DNA from: Natrinema versiforme
Lineage (GTDB): Archaea > Halobacteriota > Halobacteria > Halobacteriales > Natrialbaceae
Length of the DNA stretch: 64,000 bases
Assembly: GCF_005576615.1 (NCBI RefSeq)
Contig: NZ_CP040332.1
Span: 248,001-312,000, forward strand
Reading direction: 5' to 3'
A program made the position numbers and the translations under genes. The notes under the pieces were generated by a model. It saw nothing but the letters and a program-made list of their open reading frames with translations. It was not told where the DNA came from and searched no databases. Positions 6,597 through 45,188 of the stretch are shown here, piece after piece (position 1 is the first letter of the stretch; each line of letters opens with the position of its first letter).

Positions 6597-7649
6597 ATGA
6601 AAGACCACAACACGGCTGACGGTACGATTAACCACAGCCGACGTAACATGCTACGGACGACTGCAGCAGTCGGTGCAGCAGGATCGCTTAGCATACTGGG
6701 TGGCTGCTCATCTCTCGTTCAGTCTGGAAACGGTGGACAGCTCCAGATCTACGGGAGCGAAGGTGCACTGTACATCCCAGTCTACGACTACGGGATGGAT
6801 AATGGCGTCTGGGAAGAACACGATGTCAACATTAACCAGAACGTCGTTGGCTTCGGACAGTTCACACGCTCGTTCACGGCAAACCAGACATCGGCCACGA
6901 GCTTTCCGACGCTCAGTAGTATCCAGAATATAAACGACAGTGAGGACTTGGTCGTCATCGGGCCCCACATGAACATCATCTCCCAGACGTTTGTCCGAGA
7001 AGACTCTGACATTGAATCCGTTAACGATATCGAAGGACGGACTCTCGGCATTCCACCCTGGGGTTCCACAAATACACTTACTAACCAAGCAATGTGGGGG
7101 AGTGTCCTCGACTTCGATATGGAGGAGGACCCAGAGGAGGTAATTTCCACAGATCCGCCAGCACTGTGGAATCTACTCGTTGAAGACGAGGAAATCGATG
7201 CCATGGTGAATTTCACCGGCTTCGGTATCCGCGGGCTGGCCAATCCAGATGTTCGACCTATCTTCGATCCAGTCGAGGTCTGGCAGGACGAAACAGGTTA
7301 CGCCCCGCCAGTAACGAGTATGGTCTGTGAACGGGAGTGGGTGGAGTCGAACCCCGACGAAGCTCGTGGCCTTGTAGCTGGCTGGAAAGACGCTGTTGAC
7401 CTCTTCCGAGACAACGTTGAGGAGGCAATCAACGAGTATGGCGAATTGGCTGGGCTCCAAGACGAGGACGAGATAGAGGTCGTCATCGATCAGGTCGAAC
7501 AAGAACGGGTCTTTGAGCAGGAGTGGAGCGAGGATTACATTGACAGCAAGTGGCAGCTCATTGAGTACGTCCATGAACACGGTGGCGTTGAATCCGTCCC
7601 TGACATCGATGAGCATGCCTACACCAATGAGGACCTTGAGGCCCTGTAA
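6597..7649 (+). CDS. ABC transporter substrate-binding lipoprotein, NitT/TauT (SsuA/NMT1-like) type
   Basis: A 350-residue extracytoplasmic binding protein. The N-terminus has a twin-arginine signal (SRRNMLRTTAAVG, Arg 15-16) and a GGCSS lipobox with Cys 37, so it is exported folded and anchored to the membrane by a lipid. The mature part has the SsuA/THI5-like layout, for example VNDIEGRTLGIPPWGS, which follows the usual pattern for this fold, and DEARGLVAGWKDAVDLF. Families of this type bind sulfonates, nitrate, taurine or pyrimidine precursors. The ligand here cannot be told. It is the first gene of the operon, 6 bases from the permease. Confidence 0.85.
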   Translation: MKDHNTADGTINHSRRNMLRTTAAVGAAGSLSILGGCSSLVQSGNGGQLQIYGSEGALYIPVYDYGMDNGVWEEHDVNINQNVVGFGQFTRSFTANQTSATSFPTLSSIQNINDSEDLVVIGPHMNIISQTFVREDSDIESVNDIEGRTLGIPPWGSTNTLTNQAMWGSVLDFDMEEDPEEVISTDPPALWNLLVEDEEIDAMVNFTGFGIRGLANPDVRPIFDPVEVWQDETGYAPPVTSMVCEREWVESNPDEARGLVAGWKDAVDLFRDNVEEAINEYGELAGLQDEDEIEVVIDQVEQERVFEQEWSEDYIDSKWQLIEYVHEHGGVESVPDIDEHAYTNEDLEAL

Positions 7650-13926: not shown

Positions 13927-14104
13927 CGCAGTGCCCTTGTCCTCTTCGACTCTACAGCGACCGCTCAACAGTATCAACAATTTTCTACGTAAGAGTGAAC
14001 TCCAAATATATTCGCGTACTTATGTCCATAAGTATGAACTCCACCGTGACCTGCTGTCCCGGTAGACCGATTTGGTGAAGAAAATTCTATACTCCTGTAG
14101 TAGT

Positions 14105-14470
14105 TTAGGTGAACCGGACGCCGATATCGTGCATATTGTCGTTGTAGCGGGCAATGTTGATAACTAGTGGCGTAACACTTTCGACTTCAGCCGCATTTGC
14201 TAGCGGCCCGGCACTCAGGGCCCGTATCCCGGCCAGTTCGTTTACGAGGTCGATGACCTGCTGACGTACCTCTTCGTCGTTGGCCACTACGAGTGTATCG
14301 ACGTCAAGGTCAGCGTTGAGGTCGGCAAGGCGGTCGGCAGCGAGATTGTGAAACGCTCCTGCGATAGCCGTCGATGCAGGTGCACGCTTGGCGACTAGTT
14401 CGGTTACGCACCCCACGGACGGCGGATTAAAATGGAGACCTGACTCATCTCCCTGCATTCCTACTGCAGG
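14105..14470 (-). pseudogene. C-terminal fragment of NADPH:F420 oxidoreductase
   Basis: About 115 residues match the C-terminal half of haloarchaeal NADPH-dependent F420 reductase: VGMQGDESGLHFNPP, TAIAGAFHNLAADRLADL, DVDTLVVANDEEVRQQVIDL, and GPLANAAEVESVTPLVINIA up to the stop. The N-terminal Rossmann domain that binds NADP is absent. Homology ends near 14465, exactly where a different truncated gene (14445-14624) begins, so the two are joined by a rearrangement. It cannot be a functional reductase. Confidence 0.72.
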
Positions 14471-14624
14471 GCGACTCCTCGAGACGGGCCTCACGTTCCT
14501 TGTGCTCGGCTAGCGCTTCGGCGTGCGTAGCAACGTCTCGGAGCCGTTCCGGGTCCGACTCGTTGAGCGTGTTAACGATCTCCGTCGGGAGGTTCGCCGG
14601 TGGGGTCGGGGGTTCGTAGGACAT
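14445..14624 (-). pseudogene. Truncated small haloarchaeal protein of the MSYEPPTPP type
   Basis: ATG 14624 opens a 59-residue frame beginning MSYEPPTPPANLPTEIVNTL and continuing RLRDVATHAEALAEHKEREA before ending in unrelated residues at a stop at 14445. I recall longer haloarchaeal proteins with this N-terminus, usually hypothetical and often near mobile or plasmid genes. Here the 3' part has been replaced by the F420 reductase fragment near 14450-14470. The 15 bases upstream of the start abut a spaced inverted repeat (14639-14679) that may control it. The protein could still be translated. Confidence 0.55.
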
Positions 14625-14638
14625 CGGCTACTCTCGTG

Positions 14639-14679
14639 TTAACCAACACAACCCACTAATCCATAGTTTTGTTGGTTAA
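14639..14679. promoter_or_regulatory. Spaced inverted repeat 1 (10-bp arms, 21-bp spacer)
   Basis: TTAACCAACA at 14639-14648 and its exact reverse complement TGTTGGTTAA at 14670-14679. It lies just upstream of the gene starting at 14624. An identical arm pair with the same 21-base spacer occurs at 14881-14921. The spacer sequences differ, so the arms are what is conserved. Confidence 0.6.
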
Positions 14680-14880
14680 GACAACTTGAGCGGTTCTTGT
14701 ATCTGCTGACTGTAACACTACTCGAAACTTACCCGGGTACGGGAAAGCGCGCCTCGCGCCTTTCGGCGTAGACAAACATGCTGCGGTATAGACATGGGCA
14801 ACCCGTCAGGCAGCCAAGAGTTCTCGAGTTGGTGGAGGTAGGACGGGTGGACAGTCGAGATTCATCGACTCCTTCGAGTG

Positions 14881-14921
14881 TTAACCAACAATCTTGCGCG
14901 TACGACCATTGTGTTGGTTAA
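14881..14921. promoter_or_regulatory. Spaced inverted repeat 2, same arms and spacing
   Basis: TTAACCAACA at 14881-14890 and TGTTGGTTAA at 14912-14921. Both copies are also preceded by GTG, giving GTGTTAACCAACA. It lies about 180 bases before the MBL-fold gene. Candidate operator or recombinase-binding site. Confidence 0.6.
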
Positions 14922-15101
14922 GAATGCGACGAAGTCCACTGGAGTTCGTGTGTCAATTTCGCTGTGAAAATGTCTGATTCAACTGTCCTCCTCTCACCAG
15001 TCGGTTCAATGCTACCGACGGTGACCGCGTGATCCGGGTGACACTTTTGGAAGAAGATCCTCTGCCTTTATACAGGGCTGTGGTTAATGTAGATAAAACG
15101 C

Positions 15102-16748
15102 ATGCGTGTCTCCTATCAACATGCAAATATCAACAGCGGCAACGAATCGACGCTGCTACGGTTTACAGCTGCGGATGGCACGCGTGCTTGTATTCTCGTC
15201 GACGCAGGAGATGGCGTCAATCTCGACACACTACTTGCAGACGATGAGTATCTGAACGCAATCCTACTCACACACCCGCATATCGATCATTATCGCACGC
15301 TCGCAACGAACGTCCGACACAATGCTCCGGTCTATACGGCAGACACAACCGCCGCTATCCTCGAGCAGTCTCTCCCGGAAGCCACACAGGACAACGACCT
15401 TGGGGATATCTCCGCCGCTCTCGACGCCCTCGAACCGATCGACGACTGGACGTCGATTCTCAATGGACTCGAGGTCCGGCCGGTTGCCGCTGGCCATACA
15501 CCTGGTGGGGCAGGGTTCCTGGTCCGGTTTCGTGATGAGACTGCGACTGACGACCCCCTCAACAGCGAGCAACACATTCTCATCTCGGGGGACTTCACGA
15601 CGCGACCATGTGCGGGATTCCCGGGTCTGGAAACATCCTACCCGTTCGATGTCGACTGTCTATTGCTAAACGTCGCGAGCAACGATTCCTACACGACATC
15701 ACTGAATGAGTCACTTCGGTCGACCCTCGAGCACGCGTATGCTGGCTCACGAGTGGTTGTCGCAGCGAGTTCGTTAACGGGCGTTCACTACGCGACACTG
15801 CTGGGTCACTGTACGGAAATACTCGAGCGCGAGGTTCCGATCACGCTCGTCGGTCAGGCCGCGAAACTCTACGACACCCTCGAGTACGATGTGTCTGGGG
15901 TCGAACCAACAGCGGTCTTCGACCGGACGAACGAGGTACTGGCAGATGGCGGGATCACGATTGCCGGACCGGAGATGCCGACGACCGGCAGTACACAGCG
16001 ACTCCTGCAGGCGATCGGCGACGATCCTGTTGCTGCGTTCGTTCAATTGACGACGGGAGACGAGGTCGACCCAGCAGACACCCGCTGTACCACACAGGCG
16101 TTTTCACTGTCGAACCATCCCAGTAGCGAGACGATCACCGACATTGTCCGCAACATCGCTCCGAAAGAGGTCGTCATCAAACACGCGAGCGGACGGATGC
16201 TCAAGGAATTTCAGCGGCGCTTCGATTGCTGTTTTACGTGGGGAACGAACGATACAGGGATCCACTGCCTCTACGAGAACGGCGAGTGGCAGGTCCCCGA
16301 TTGGATCACCGACTCGACTGCAAGTCGAATTCAAAGCCGACAGTGGGAAGCGATCCAAGAGCAGTCACTCGAGATTGACGCCTCACTACCTCGCTGTCGA
16401 CATGGGTCGATCGATCTTGAGGCAGAAGGTGTCGATCTCGATGCCCTCGAAGAGACGTTTTCAGGAGCTATCGAGGACCCATATTCCGGTACCGATCCTG
16501 AGAACAACAGTTCGAAACCAGCTGAAAGTGACGAGGACGACCGACAGCACGATCGATCGTTCGAGGAAGACGTCCTCGCCCGTCTCGAGGCGATTGAAAC
16601 GACACTCGACCGATCAGAGGAGACGGTTTCAGCCCGCGTACTGAGCGATGGTGCGGACAAGCAGATCTTGCAACTTCTAGAGGCCGCTGATGTCGACGCT
16701 GGTGACGTAGTCGACGTAACTATCAAAACAGAACCGGGCGACGAATAG
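15102..16748 (+). CDS. MBL-fold metallo-hydrolase with long C-terminal extension
   Basis: A 548-residue protein with the metallo-beta-lactamase signature HPHIDH (residues 58-63), which would bind two metal ions, usually zinc. Further ligand candidates are His in AAGHTPGGAG (about 133), Asp in LISGDFTTRP (about 164) and His in VIKHASG (about 364). The latter follows a segment that resembles the helical insertion of beta-CASP nucleases, but the fit is loose. From about residue 430 comes an acidic linker, then a predicted coiled coil (EEDVLARLEAIETTLDRSEE) and a tail ending DAGDVVDVTI. Start ATG 15102 gives the first MBL strand without a signal peptide, so it is cytoplasmic. Nuclease, phosphodiesterase or other hydrolase roles are all possible. 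Confidence 0.75.
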   Translation: MRVSYQHANINSGNESTLLRFTAADGTRACILVDAGDGVNLDTLLADDEYLNAILLTHPHIDHYRTLATNVRHNAPVYTADTTAAILEQSLPEATQDNDLGDISAALDALEPIDDWTSILNGLEVRPVAAGHTPGGAGFLVRFRDETATDDPLNSEQHILISGDFTTRPCAGFPGLETSYPFDVDCLLLNVASNDSYTTSLNESLRSTLEHAYAGSRVVVAASSLTGVHYATLLGHCTEILEREVPITLVGQAAKLYDTLEYDVSGVEPTAVFDRTNEVLADGGITIAGPEMPTTGSTQRLLQAIGDDPVAAFVQLTTGDEVDPADTRCTTQAFSLSNHPSSETITDIVRNIAPKEVVIKHASGRMLKEFQRRFDCCFTWGTNDTGIHCLYENGEWQVPDWITDSTASRIQSRQWEAIQEQSLEIDASLPRCRHGSIDLEAEGVDLDALEETFSGAIEDPYSGTDPENNSSKPAESDEDDRQHDRSFEEDVLARLEAIETTLDRSEETVSARVLSDGADKQILQLLEAADVDAGDVVDVTIKTEPGDE

Positions 16749-40179: not shown

Positions 40180-42009
40180 ATGTCCGAAAAGGACACTAAC
40201 TATAGTAGTGATTTGGCTCTGGACCGCCGGATGTTCATGAAAGGTATCGGCGCGACAGGCGTTACGGCCATGCTAGCCGGATGTGGCGGCATGGGCGACG
40301 AAGATAACAGGAACAACACTGTGGACGCGGAAGAGGATATTGAGACAAACGAGGAAGCACTGCAAATGATCCAGGAGCTGGCGTGGATCACGAACCAAGA
40401 ACTCCCGATGTTGCCAGTGACGGAGAAAACGTCGCAGTCGTTCCAGTCGACGGATGGCTGGGACGTTCCGGACACGGACAGCAACGATCTATACTACTAC
40501 TGGCCCACGGAGTGGGTTCCTCGCTTCGGCAATTGGCGGGCAACCGGCGACGACGACACGCTTAGCGTTACTCAGTGGGACGTCCCCGATGACTGCCAGT
40601 ACAACCCTTGGAACACTCGTGGCGACGCAGAGCCGCGACGAAACCTCTTCGACCGGTTCATGTCCTTCAACATTGTCACCGGCGAGTACGAGGGGTATGC
40701 GGTCTCCGACTGGGAGTACGACGGGCAGACAATCGACCTCACCGTCCGGGATGGTCTGACCTGGCACGACGGCGATGACGTCGTGGCGCAGGATATTGTC
40801 AACCAGATCAAGTTGGACATGTATGCCGGTTCGACGCTCGGCGATCTGGTCTCGAATATCCCGACGGACGTCGAAGTCGTCGACGATGCGACGGCGCGAA
40901 TCACGTTCGAGGGAGAGATCAACGAACGGATCGTCCTCGGTTACCTCCAGCCGACCCGGCTCATCGCCAAGAACAGCGAATACGGCGAGTATGTCGAGCA
41001 ATTCGACGATGCCGAGAACGAAGACGAGGAGATTGCCGTCCTGAGCGATCTCCAAGAATGGTCCGTCCCGGAACCGATCGGTTCTGGACCGTTTGCGTTT
41101 GAGGATGCCGACACCCAGCGGACCCTGCTCGCGAAGTTCGATGATCACCCCGATGCGGACAACATCAACTTCGACTACCTTGAGCACAGGTACATGCCGT
41201 CCAACGAACGGCGTTGGAACGCACTCCAGAACGGCGAACTTGACGGCGAAGCGACCCTGTTTATGCCGCAGAACCAAGTGAATCAGCTCCCGGACGACAT
41301 GCAGGTTGCCCACGTTCCGCGCCACTGGGGGATGGGGCTGATGTTCAACCACGACGACGAGCACATCGGGAAACTCCAAGTTCGACAGGCGATCGCGCAC
41401 GTCGTCGATCGAGAACTCGTCGCCGGGAACGCAGACTCGGGCACGGGAACGAAGCTCGGCGTCTCCTATCCGAGCGGTATCACGGGCGATTTCAGCAACC
41501 GCGTCGAAGAGGAGTGGCTCGATGGCGTCGTCGATCAATTCAACGAGTACGAGACGGATACTGGTCGTGCCGAAGAACTACTACAAGATGCCGGCTATAC
41601 GAAGGAAGGCGGTACGTGGGTTGACGAGACCGGATCAGAGCTCACGGTGCCCATCAAGGTCCCGCAGGGCTTCTCGGACTGGGTGACCGCCGTCCAAACT
41701 GTCGTCGACCAACTCGATGAGTTCGGTATCGCAGCCGAAACACTCACGCGAGACGACGGCACCTACTGGGGGCAGGACGTCCCGGAAAGTGACTTTGTCA
41801 TCGCGACCGAAGGATGGGCGAACTACGACCAGACGTACCCCTACTACCACTTCGACCACCTCTACGGCGGCGGTGACGGCAGTGTGCAGGATAACGCGAA
41901 CTTCCCGGATGAGTTCGACGTCGAGGTACTCCACGACGATGTTCGAGATAGCTCGACCGTCGATCCAACCACAATCATCGAATCGCTCGCAAAGGTCACC
42001 AGCGAATAA
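40180..42009 (+). CDS. Opp/Dpp-type ABC substrate-binding lipoprotein
   Basis: A 609-residue binding protein of the peptide/opine/oligosaccharide (SBP_bac_5) family. The twin-arginine signal is LDRRMFMKGIGATG (Arg 16-17) and the lipobox LAGCGG has Cys 35. Family segments include YDGQTIDLTVRDGLTWHDGD, AQDIVNQIKLDM, GSGPFAFEDAD and VRQAIAHVVDRELVAGNA. In archaea and Thermotogales Opp-like binding proteins often bind oligosaccharides; with a GH13 alpha-glucosidase next door and TrmB at the end of the operon, an alpha-glucoside is the likely ligand, although peptides cannot be ruled out. Confidence 0.88.
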   Translation: MSEKDTNYSSDLALDRRMFMKGIGATGVTAMLAGCGGMGDEDNRNNTVDAEEDIETNEEALQMIQELAWITNQELPMLPVTEKTSQSFQSTDGWDVPDTDSNDLYYYWPTEWVPRFGNWRATGDDDTLSVTQWDVPDDCQYNPWNTRGDAEPRRNLFDRFMSFNIVTGEYEGYAVSDWEYDGQTIDLTVRDGLTWHDGDDVVAQDIVNQIKLDMYAGSTLGDLVSNIPTDVEVVDDATARITFEGEINERIVLGYLQPTRLIAKNSEYGEYVEQFDDAENEDEEIAVLSDLQEWSVPEPIGSGPFAFEDADTQRTLLAKFDDHPDADNINFDYLEHRYMPSNERRWNALQNGELDGEATLFMPQNQVNQLPDDMQVAHVPRHWGMGLMFNHDDEHIGKLQVRQAIAHVVDRELVAGNADSGTGTKLGVSYPSGITGDFSNRVEEEWLDGVVDQFNEYETDTGRAEELLQDAGYTKEGGTWVDETGSELTVPIKVPQGFSDWVTAVQTVVDQLDEFGIAAETLTRDDGTYWGQDVPESDFVIATEGWANYDQTYPYYHFDHLYGGGDGSVQDNANFPDEFDVEVLHDDVRDSSTVDPTTIIESLAKVTSE

Positions 42010-42107
42010 CGATCCTCGACCGAAACTGACTACACCATGGTTTATACTGTTATACAGGTTAAACACAAACGGACTGCGGCCTCTGGTGTGACCTAACTGA
42101 CGTTCAC

Positions 42108-43115
42108 ATGAACTACGTAATAAAACGAACCGGCCAGGCGATATTCACAATCTTCGCCACCATCTCGGTATCGTTCGGGCTGATTCGCCTGCTGCCCGGC
42201 GGACCGACGGATTATCTCCGAGCACAGATGCTTCAGCGTGGTGAGGATATGACCGCCCAACAGATTAATCGTCGGATCGAAGCGCAGACCAACATTGCCG
42301 TTGATGAGCCGCTACACATACAGTACATAGACTACATGACGAGTATCCTGACGGGTGACTTCGGGACTTCACACTGGCAAAACGAGCCTGTGACCGAAGT
42401 GCTCGGGAGTGCTGTCCCGTGGACTATCTTCATCATGTCCGTCTCGTTGTTCCTCGCGTTTGCCATCGGGATTAGCCTCGGGGCATTCATGGCGTACCGA
42501 GAGGGCAGTCGGTTTGACGTGGCGTCAACCGGCGTGGCACTGGTGTTGAATTCGACGCCAGGGTACGTCGTCGGACTGCTCGCGCTTGTGTTCCTAGGAT
42601 ACCGTACCGGAATCTTCCCGACAGGAGGTCATCACGCCTCGGGGCTAGAGCCCGGACTGAACGCCAAGTTCCTACTCAGCGCAGCCTACCATGGCGCCTT
42701 GCCGATCCTCTCGATGACAGTCGTCGCGTTCGGTGGTTGGGCGCTCGACATGCGCGGGAACAGCATTCGCGTTCTCGGTGCCGACTATCTGCACGTCGCT
42801 CGGCTCAGGGGGCTCCCCGAGCGGCGGATCGCGCTGCGATACGTGGCGCGGAACGCGATCTTGCCAATGTACACTGGTCTCATGATCGCAATCGGGACGA
42901 TGTTCGGCGGCGCCATCATCATCGAAGAGATCTTCGCCTACCCTGGCGTTGGCTTCTATCTCATCAGTTCGATCCACCAGCGTGACTATCCCGTAATGAT
43001 GGGCGCGTTCATTCTGATCACAGTCGCTGTTGTGATCGGGATCTACATCGCCGACATGACATACGGAAAACTCGATCCGCGGGCCAAACGAGGTGAATCG
43101 CGTGAGTCCTACTGA
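42108..43115 (+). CDS. Opp/Dpp-type ABC permease B
   Basis: A 335-residue membrane protein of the DppB type with about six helices. It starts MNYVIKRTGQAIFTIFATIS with the usual leading helix. The large external loop after it is typical (LPGGPTDYLRAQML, QYIDYMTSILTGDFGTS). The EAA-like loop RLRGLPERRIALRYVARNA docks to the ATPases. The C-terminus reads IADMTYGKLDPRAKRG, the family ending. Its 3' end overlaps the next permease gene by 23 bases. Confidence 0.92.
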   Translation: MNYVIKRTGQAIFTIFATISVSFGLIRLLPGGPTDYLRAQMLQRGEDMTAQQINRRIEAQTNIAVDEPLHIQYIDYMTSILTGDFGTSHWQNEPVTEVLGSAVPWTIFIMSVSLFLAFAIGISLGAFMAYREGSRFDVASTGVALVLNSTPGYVVGLLALVFLGYRTGIFPTGGHHASGLEPGLNAKFLLSAAYHGALPILSMTVVAFGGWALDMRGNSIRVLGADYLHVARLRGLPERRIALRYVARNAILPMYTGLMIAIGTMFGGAIIIEEIFAYPGVGFYLISSIHQRDYPVMMGAFILITVAVVIGIYIADMTYGKLDPRAKRGESRESY

Positions 43116-44100
43116 GGCAAATAGGTCAGACTTCGAGACCGTCTCCGACAGTCAAATCTCGCGCAGTGAACGGTACAGACAACTAGTTGACGAGCTGTTA
43201 CTCGCACCCGCCCGCATCGTGTGGAACGATTGGCGCGCGCGCATCGCCATCACGATCATCTCCGTGTTCGTCTTCATGGGTACCGTCGGGATCCGCCTCG
43301 TCAAAGAGCCCCGGACGAACCAAGGCGATCGGCTCGTAGGTGCATTCCAGACGCTCGAACATCCCCTTGGGACAACACCGCTGGGAGTAGATATCATGTC
43401 CCAGATCATCTACGCTACCGTCCCGATGCTGAAGATGATCACCGCAGGTGCGGTCTTCTCGGTGGTCGTAGCGACGACTGTCGGAACCATATCGGGTTAC
43501 AAGGGCGGTACCATCGACCGTGCATTGATGGCGCTGACCGACGTTATGCTGACGATCCCAGGACTCCCGCTAGTGATCGTCCTCGCCGGCGTGATGGATA
43601 TCAGCGGAAACCCGTACTTGATCGGGGTCTTGCTGTCTATCAACGCTTGGGCCGGGCTAGCGCGGGCACTCCGATCGCAGGTCTTGACGTTACGAGATGC
43701 CGACTACGTCGAGGCCGCCCGACTCATGGGCATCCCGACTTCGAAAATACTGACCGTCGATATCATCCCGAACCTGATGCCGTACATCACGATGAACTTC
43801 GTCAAACAGGCCCGGGCGGTGATATTTGGATCCGTCGGTCTGTATTACCTTGGCATTCTGCCGTACAGCACGGTTAACTGGGGCGTCATGATGAACAACG
43901 CGGTCAAGCAAGCGGGTGCGACGTCCTCGCCAGCCGCGTTCCATTGGTTGGCGATGCCGATGTTGGCCATCATCCTGCTGTCGATGGGGCTGACACTGTT
44001 CGCCCAATCGGCCGACCGGCTGTTCAATCCCCGCGTACGGGCGCGTCACGCAAAGTCGATTAGTGGAGATAACGACACGACCAGCGAGGTGAAGTCCTGA
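43093..44100 (+). CDS. Opp/Dpp-type ABC permease C
   Basis: A 335-residue DppC-type permease. The start is GTG 43093 or GTG 43102; either overlaps the preceding gene. After a cytoplasmic N-terminal region comes helix 1 (IAITIISVFVFMGTVGI), then HPLGTTPLGVDIMSQIIYA, the canonical DppC periplasmic segment. The EAA-like loop is VEAARLMGIPTSKILTVDII. Together with the permease at 42108 it forms the channel. The stop shares its last base with the ATG of the ATPase gene (TGATG). Confidence 0.92.
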   Translation: MNRVSPTEANRSDFETVSDSQISRSERYRQLVDELLLAPARIVWNDWRARIAITIISVFVFMGTVGIRLVKEPRTNQGDRLVGAFQTLEHPLGTTPLGVDIMSQIIYATVPMLKMITAGAVFSVVVATTVGTISGYKGGTIDRALMALTDVMLTIPGLPLVIVLAGVMDISGNPYLIGVLLSINAWAGLARALRSQVLTLRDADYVEAARLMGIPTSKILTVDIIPNLMPYITMNFVKQARAVIFGSVGLYYLGILPYSTVNWGVMMNNAVKQAGATSSPAAFHWLAMPMLAIILLSMGLTLFAQSADRLFNPRVRARHAKSISGDNDTTSEVKS

Positions 44101-45188
44101 TGGAAAACACAGTACAACAATCAGCCCAAAACCAGGCCAATACGGTCGACAACGACAGAGACGTAATTCTCTCTCTAGAAAACGCGACGGTCGAGTTCGA
44201 CATGGACAGGGGCACGTCTCGTGTGCTCGACTCCGTCGACTTCGACGTGTACCGCGAGGAGATCGTCGGTATCGTCGGCGAAAGCGGCAGTGGGAAGTCA
44301 ATGCTCGCGAACGCGATGCTCGACGCGGTCGAAGAACCAGGTCGGGTCACCGGCAGCGTGAGGTACTTCCCCGAAGGCGAGGATCCGAAGGACGTCCTTG
44401 AACTGTCGGACACAGAACTCCGGAAGTTCCGCTGGGAAGAGATCTCAATGGTGTTCCAAGGGGCCTCTCGCTCGTTCAACCCGACGATGTCGATTCGCGG
44501 GCATTTTGAGGAGACGCTCAAAGCCCACGATGAAGATCTGGAGGACGGTATGGAGCGGACCCGAGAACTGCTTTCGGACCTCTACCTTGATCCAGAGCGC
44601 GTGCTGGACTCCTACCCGCATGAACTGTCCGGCGGGATGTCTCAGCGGGCGCTGATCGCGCTGAGTCTCGTGTTAGAGCCCGAAGTACTCGTGATGGACG
44701 AACCGACTGCAGCGCTCGATCTCCTGATGCAACGCTCCATCCTCAGTTTGCTGTCCGACCTTCAGGAGAAATACGAGTTGACCGTCGTGTTCATCACCCA
44801 CGACTTGCCCTTAGTGGCGGGACTAGCTGATCGCCTAGCCGTGATGTACGCGTTCGATCTCCGAGAAGTGGGTCCTACGGAGAGCATCGTCCGGAACCCG
44901 TCTCACCCCTACACTCGTGCGCTGTTGAAGGCAGTTCCCAACCTCGATGCGCCACTCGACACGATGGAACCGATCGAGGGCTCTGCTCCCGATCCGGTAG
45001 CTACGCAGGACGGATGTACGTATGCGCCTCGGTGCCCGCTGGCCGACGATACGTGTCGAGAGTCGCCACCCGAGTTCCACCAGGTTGACGGTAACAGCGA
45101 GCATGCGGTTACCTGTTACTACTGGGATCAAGCCGACGAGGCAGTCGAACTTGACCTCGATGTCGCGGATCCGGAGGTGTCCAGATGA
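44100..45188 (+). CDS. Opp/Dpp-type ABC ATPase D
   Basis: A 362-residue ATPase with Walker A GESGSGKS, signature LSGGMSQRALIALSL and Walker B VLVMDEPTAALD. Downstream are the switch His (VFITHDLPLV) and the oligopeptide-type C-terminal extension NPSHPYTRALLKAVP and CTYAPRCPLADDTC with its conserved cysteines. It pairs with the ATPase at 45185 as the asymmetric motor of the importer. An N-terminal Gln/Asn-rich 20 residues precede the domain. Overlap of ATGA with the next gene indicates coupling. Confidence 0.93.
   Translation: MENTVQQSAQNQANTVDNDRDVILSLENATVEFDMDRGTSRVLDSVDFDVYREEIVGIVGESGSGKSMLANAMLDAVEEPGRVTGSVRYFPEGEDPKDVLELSDTELRKFRWEEISMVFQGASRSFNPTMSIRGHFEETLKAHDEDLEDGMERTRELLSDLYLDPERVLDSYPHELSGGMSQRALIALSLVLEPEVLVMDEPTAALDLLMQRSILSLLSDLQEKYELTVVFITHDLPLVAGLADRLAVMYAFDLREVGPTESIVRNPSHPYTRALLKAVPNLDAPLDTMEPIEGSAPDPVATQDGCTYAPRCPLADDTCRESPPEFHQVDGNSEHAVTCYYWDQADEAVELDLDVADPEVSR

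Follow-up and report, generated by a model that had tools for sequence, protein, structure and literature searches.

A two-armed inverted repeat scattered over haloarchaeal plasmids and viruses, and a DUF6788-like protein as its probable reader

Introduction

Self-repressing plasmid regulators and centromere-binding proteins alike occupy an operator at their own promoter and, beyond this, more sites on the same replicon. Among the archaea, the upkeep of large plasmids and their discrimination from one another have been little studied outside the Sulfolobales. In that group, the SegAB system pairs SegA, a ParA-like ATPase, with SegB, a small site-specific DNA-binding protein that recognizes dozens of scattered palindromic sites, some of which precede its own operon; SegB is an RHH protein, and its site is 13 bp long, contiguous and in about 83% of cases intragenic (PMC12284271). 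For DUF6788 (PF20586), the family to which the present work leads, no function or site is on record, and a literature search for DUF6788 gave no paper naming the family.

The locus described here lies in a 64,000-nucleotide stretch of Natrinema versiforme DNA (the window throughout this text), situated on contig C4 of that genome. A first-pass annotation had reported in it two spaced inverted repeats, and had proposed that these are a protein site, either an operator or a recombinase core, rather than copies of a transposon.

Results

The two repeats and their surroundings are as follows.

14105-14458, minus strand: npdG-like (NADPH-dependent F420 reductase) fragment, 65% DNA identity to an annotated npdG (query 14102-14472)
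14445-14624, minus strand: truncated DUF6788-like gene, a 59-aa open frame with 14 bp between its start codon and site 1
14472-14730: piece common to the window and contig C3, 97% identical to C3:5326-5584, carrying the relic gene and site 1
14639-14679: site 1, exact match to TTAACCAACA-N21-TGTTGGTTAA, predicted operator of the truncated DUF6788-like gene
14661-14666, minus strand: TATA-like CTATGG within the site 1 spacer, conserved in type-I gene operators; putative promoter
14828-15200: tested part of a second piece shared with C3, 96% identical to C3 near 359 kb, which takes in site 2 and extends into the MBL-fold gene
14881-14921: site 2, exact match to TTAACCAACA-N21-TGTTGGTTAA, with the MBL-fold gene starting 180 bp downstream
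15102-16748, plus strand: MBL-fold protein gene (PF12706, E 3e-9; PF00753, E 2e-7)

In both sites the 10-bp arms are perfect and the spacers are 21 bp long but differ in sequence, and the chance expectation for the pattern in the window is 0.00; the pair is thus just what the first-pass annotation had described. The 240 non-coding bases between them are indeed flanked by a truncated gene and an MBL-fold gene, as had been stated, but they do not form one unit: because the 97% and 96% matches lie at different places on C3 (a 492-kb contig of the same genome that is probably a plasmid), this interval joins two separately related pieces lying next to each other. Site 1 is a 97% copy of the putative operator at C3:5377-5417, and the piece that carries it also matches many haloarchaeal plasmids, while the spacer of site 2 is identical to that of C3:359271-359311, and the C3 relative of the MBL-fold gene has a site upstream as well. 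Only about 51 N-terminal residues of the DUF6788-like product remain (profile positions 1-51 of 107), and its C-terminal beta-sheet is therefore gone; a profile search finds full-length copies of the protein encoded on C3, where a gene for the type-I protein (see below) occupies C3:5432-5755. The pair in the window is a relic, in which site 1 accompanies the truncated DUF6788-like gene and site 2 an MBL-fold gene with a counterpart on C3. The npdG-like fragment, for which a Pfam search gave no match, is a neighbour behind the truncated gene and stands outside the system.

Of the 17 exact sites in this genome, 15 are on C3 and the other two are those of the window. Permitting up to three mismatches at a 21-bp spacer added two sites only, each with a single mismatch, from which we take the arms to be nearly invariant. 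A search of 61 haloarchaeal genomes, such as the annotation had suggested as a means of exposing chance copies, found sites in 33 (our own included; at most 21 per genome), and the pattern read backwards as a control gave 0 matches in the same 61. A genome collection yielded at least 119 stretches with the site, nearly all haloarchaeal among the matches listed, and viral contigs yielded 54 stretches, halovirus ChaoS9 being one of the sources. Single matches in Aerophobetes (N29) and Omnitrophica (N24, at a gene end) MAGs were judged to be chance, and a literature search by arm sequences gave no halophile work among the matches listed. The two repeats in the window represent a single conserved DNA site that is found across plasmids and viruses of haloarchaea and is far from chance. 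The spacer length, constant at 21 bp in both window copies as claimed, is not so elsewhere, for among 245 distinct sites it is mostly 20-23 bp (20 bp, n=20; 21, n=108; 22, n=88; 23, n=16; few others).

Plasmids pJ7-1 (Natrinema sp. J7-2) and CP098416 (Halorubrum) have much backbone in common, with genes for ParA, primase and XseAB in it; each has 7-8 sites, several of them with one mismatch. Near 7265 on pJ7-1 and near 44747 on CP098416, cargo abuts a site in one plasmid and is absent there in the other; site-adjacent cargo on this pair comprises a DUF5797 gene and nrdR with ribonucleotide reductase genes. At five sites (L002, L010, L032, L134 and L140), one and the same IS-like end begins 7-8 bp beyond the arm; it reads CGCTCTTATGTAGAACTG in the copies inspected. 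These sites, C3:15867 and C3:244942 among them, are otherwise unrelated, with variable bases between the arm and the IS end, and CGCTCTTATGTAGAACTG possibly belongs to an insertion sequence for which the site is the target.

That the sites serve recombination, as cassette boundaries or as the recombinase core of the first-pass annotation, would agree with the differing cargo next to sites on related plasmids and with the tyrosine recombinase genes that these replicons carry. However, the spacers on a single replicon vary in length and share no crossover or overlap sequence, orthologous sites each retain their own spacer, and the near-identical one-sided case (L002/L010) begins 8 bp outside the arm and resembles an IS end; one-sided homology between sites was seen in 476 pairs. 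With spacers that differ from site to site on one replicon but are retained at each locus, a recombination role fails, and we regard it as highly improbable. Transposon ends or a MITE were likewise rejected: non-orthologous sites have only the arms in common, and similarity beyond the arms is locus-specific, in keeping with the annotation's preference for a protein site over a transposon copy. With regard to an intrinsic terminator, the arms are invariant within a type, so that compensatory change is not visible, and the composition of the flanks reveals no T run.

The commonest neighbour of the site is a protein of about 107 aa (MSYEPPTPPANLPTEIVNTLNE...NRYYYWQWREGDKVKSKYKGPV; type I), whose gene adjoins 47 of 301 sites, with a gap of 14 bp between arm and start codon at 26 of these 47 putative operators. 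When the protein was searched for by a profile blind to the site, 26 loci were recovered, and at 25 of them a site stood 8-16 bp upstream of the gene; site 1 of the window has the same position relative to its start codon. All 24 genomes with a strong match to the protein (E<1e-40) have two or more sites, against 4 of the 37 others (four genomes with at least two sites give no strong match to the profile), a by-genome association (Fisher 3e-13) whose independence is overstated because the genomes are related. Four viral contigs with 2-4 sites (G062, G070, G072 and G084) contained no DUF6788-like gene in the stretches read. Given that site and protein co-vary, the site very probably functions as operator of the protein's own gene, and this plasmid- and virus-encoded DUF6788-like protein seems to be the best-supported candidate for its reader. 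Such placement could also result from some other regulator acting on the DUF6788-like gene, but that would not readily explain why the arms vary with the protein subtype, as set out below. The annotation had advised looking for a linked HTH or integrase gene; a linked candidate DNA-binding gene does seem to be present, but it is DUF6788-like and neither of these.

Transcription of a gene pair for a MarR/HVO_2833_C regulator and a DUF6036 nucleotidyltransferase leads off from the DUF6788-like gene, and in 14 of 18 cases 83 bp separate the start of the pair from the site (pJ7-1 41394-43120, with homologues at CP098416 76422-78148 and C3:3775-5293). As a reader of the site, this HTH (HVO_2833_C) gene beside DUF6036 was rejected, for it occurs in five plasmid groups and zero virus groups. 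A weaker relative of the DUF6788-like protein (E about 1e-16 to 1e-22) recurs on the chromosomes of many Natrialbaceae, for example at L327, at L330 and in our own genome at G000:C2:1183381-1183677; in the L327 and L330 proteins acidic residues replace basic ones (GTEYYYYQWREGDEIRSET), and no TTAACCAACA repeat lies upstream.

The type-I protein itself gives no significant Pfam match, and none to PF20586 up to E 10. Against the family's cut-off of 27.2 bits, the relative at L126 scores 37.7 and is above it, and those of phiH1 (24.3) and phiCh1 (23.4) fall below; an HMM of type I retrieves all three (E 2e-8 to 5e-6), and a joint alignment could be made. We call type I DUF6788-like because it is under the Pfam cut-off and yet tied to the family through these intermediates. 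It resembles DUF6788 in that divergent haloarchaeal relatives do match the family and have a repeat at the start codon, and differs in lacking the CxnCxC...HGPY stretch. Of the virus family phrog_22659, for which no function is given, phiH1_250 is a member (E 3.6e-73), and the ChaoS9 homologue matches weakly (E 1.1e-5). AlphaFold2 predicts two N-terminal helices followed by a C-terminal beta-sheet (pLDDT 76 for type I and 90 for a relative). Structure searches with the two models gave no significant match, known DNA-binding folds included, and integrase arm-binding domains (3rmp, 3jtz) came up at no better than E 1-2.5 and a Sulfolobus nucleoid protein at E 0.3; a PDB sequence search with the protein gave no match.

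It is the divergent members that allow the link between protein and repeat to be examined across arm types. In phiCh1 and phiH1, no TTAACCAACA pairs occur in the stretches read (about 43 of 58 kb each); their arm type is TTATCAAACA-N24-TGTTTGATAA, which phiCh1 carries at four positions, at one of them with an arm of 9 bp, and phiH1 at two. Between ORF47 and ORF48 of phiCh1 we find an unannotated DUF6788-like gene of 112 aa (NC_004084.1 33244-33582, minus strand), the start of which is 4 bp from one such repeat. A profile built from the phiH1, phiCh1 and Halorubrum relatives retrieved many divergent members from 243 genomes, and an inverted repeat (10-bp arms, at most one mismatch, spacer 20-27) is located at the start codon in 27 of 30 divergent loci, compared with 142 of 3064 other genes (4.6%), a control that retains some true sites. 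Moreover, the arm types track the C-terminal strands: CCTTATGTAACA goes with LYRYYRENGTMKSEYVGK, TCTTACCAAACA with KYVVRRxGDxLxWEYKG, TTATCAAAC with KYVVSRDGNGGHNWEYEG, and there are others. Eight of the 243 genomes carry CTTATGTAACA repeats, as many as seven in a genome, and each of the eight also matches the protein profile; type-III repeats, too, are multicopy in some genomes, and one type-III relative of the protein is encoded at G039:C1:2544484-2544804. A scan of viral sequences for TTATCAAACA repeats gave only two fitting contigs, both GC-rich with N24, in whose stretches read no DUF6788-like gene was found; the remaining viral matches look like chance in low-GC DNA. In bacteria, a Candidatus Tritonobacter MAG encodes a protein with the DUF6788-like motif (L117 5541-5858, minus strand) that has two type-I sites within 118 bp upstream, and of 14 other bacterial DUF6788 loci three (L393, L401 and L402) have inverted repeats around GTTGACATCTTGA, with arms of 17, 15 and 8 bp and a spacer of 19-21, beside or overlapping the start codon. 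The simplest reading of this co-variation is that the protein reads its own repeat.

An RHH-looking partner of ParA, comparable to SegB or ParG, was the binder we had favoured first; the sites would then be parS-like centromeres, and the DUF6788-like gene merely one regulated target. ParA and a small partner are common to site-bearing plasmids and viruses, sites adjoin the par operon in some of them (54 bp from parA in contig G062 and 73 bp from the partner in G072), and sites are enriched in partner-bearing genomes (19/24 vs 9/37). That association is nevertheless weaker than the one between the DUF6788-like protein and the site. One recognition strand, ERKNVNMYLPE, is common to the partners of G062 and phiCh1, whose ParA proteins are 90% identical, while the arms are of the TTAACCAACA and the TTATCAAACA type, respectively; in G010, G023 and G025, furthermore, the partner is undetectable despite 9, 6 and 5 sites. 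Because the strand stays the same when the arm type changes, and several site-rich genomes lack the partner, the ParA partner was rejected as the binder, and we consider this explanation quite improbable.

Within the spacers of type-I operators, TATA-like words are found in 78% of cases as opposed to 13% at other sites, CTATGG being present in many, and the arms of these operators therefore seem to bracket a core promoter. At sites away from the DUF6788-like gene, A+T content has maxima at the dyad itself and at a distance of two bases from either arm, and the annotation's notion of a free spacer sequence needs amending accordingly: the spacers are unlike, but not without a pattern. Genes were called with a simple gene caller that recovers most annotated genes of pJ7-1; by this measure 11 of 301 sites are intragenic and some 96% intergenic. 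Leaving out the sites adjacent to DUF6788-like genes, 137 lie between co-directional, 46 between convergent and 39 between divergent gene pairs, and the stop codon is nearer than the start in 40 of 54 independent upstream families. Such stop-proximal placement, together with the counts of gene orientation, does not fit a general promoter operator, so that the operator function first proposed is supported for the copies preceding DUF6788-like genes but not for most of the others, which stand away from promoters.

The same placement could be taken to mean that the DUF6788-like protein binds the scattered sites in order to act on transcription, whether as a plasmid-wide regulator or, where transcription units end, as a roadblock or insulator. 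The sites do avoid genes and favour stop codons, several arms supply a TAA stop, convergent placement occurs, and control of the protein's own promoter is likely. Yet any architectural site that shuns coding sequence and promoters would give this pattern, many sites are 50-170 bp from the next start, and the linkage of the protein's gene to Orc1 and ParA genes would go unexplained; we think a transcriptional role for the scattered sites unlikely. As to this linkage, an Orc1/Cdc6 or ParA gene is present within 1.5 kb at 18 of 26 type-I and 10 of 30 other loci, relative to 10% of random plasmid windows (Orc1, 17/26 and 6/30; ParA, 2/26 and 6/30). It is from here that our guess of replicon maintenance derives. 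Clustering of the sites themselves near Orc1/ParA genes was tested and was not significant.

Discussion

Taken as a whole, our observations are best explained if TTAACCAACA-N20-23-TGTTGGTTAA is the recognition site of the DUF6788-like protein, a reading based on sequence comparison to which we would assign a probability of roughly 0.7. It is reasonable to postulate that the protein acts as a dimer in which each C-terminal sheet would grip one arm, the arms lying on the same side of the DNA with about three helical turns between them, and that a symmetric complex holding both arms would bend the A+T-rich middle; A+T peaks at the dyad and near the arms are as expected for one such complex. At its own gene, the bound protein probably covers the promoter between the arms and thereby represses its own synthesis. 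The same protein might also bind the scattered intergenic copies, which might then function in maintaining the replicon, either like dispersed centromeres or in the control of replication, a twofold suggestion that we make tentatively and place somewhat short of even odds. Extended further, DUF6788-like proteins might represent a new class of replicon-organizing (centromere-like) DNA-binding proteins, with an unmatched fold and genes beside ParA-partner and Orc1 modules, and the bipartite sites a dispersed partition or incompatibility code of haloarchaeal plasmids and tailed viruses, perhaps competed for, and with relatives in bacteria; this broader proposal we regard as doubtful.

For DUF6788, a family common on haloarchaeal plasmids and viruses, the analysis provides a first testable function, namely sequence-specific and self-regulating DNA binding, and it offers a site code for a protein family hitherto without an assigned function. 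If partition or replication control is what the scattered sites are for, they would be relevant to the persistence of large plasmids and plasmid-like proviruses in archaea and to their discrimination.

Compared with plasmid regulators and centromere-binding proteins in general, the system is alike in its probable own-promoter operator and in the further sites on the replicon; it is unlike them in the three-turn spacing of the arms, in the absence of a recognized fold and in arm types that follow protein subtypes. With SegAB it shares its archaeal setting, a small (here predicted) DNA-binding protein with scattered sites, some of these at the protein's own operon, and possibly a ParA-type partner. 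It departs from SegAB in that two 10-bp arms are set 21-22 bp apart, the sites are overwhelmingly intergenic, and the gene is usually beside Orc1 and not ParA. By analogy, SegAB may serve as the closest working model for the haloarchaeal sites, from which they differ in site shape, in placement and in the protein itself.
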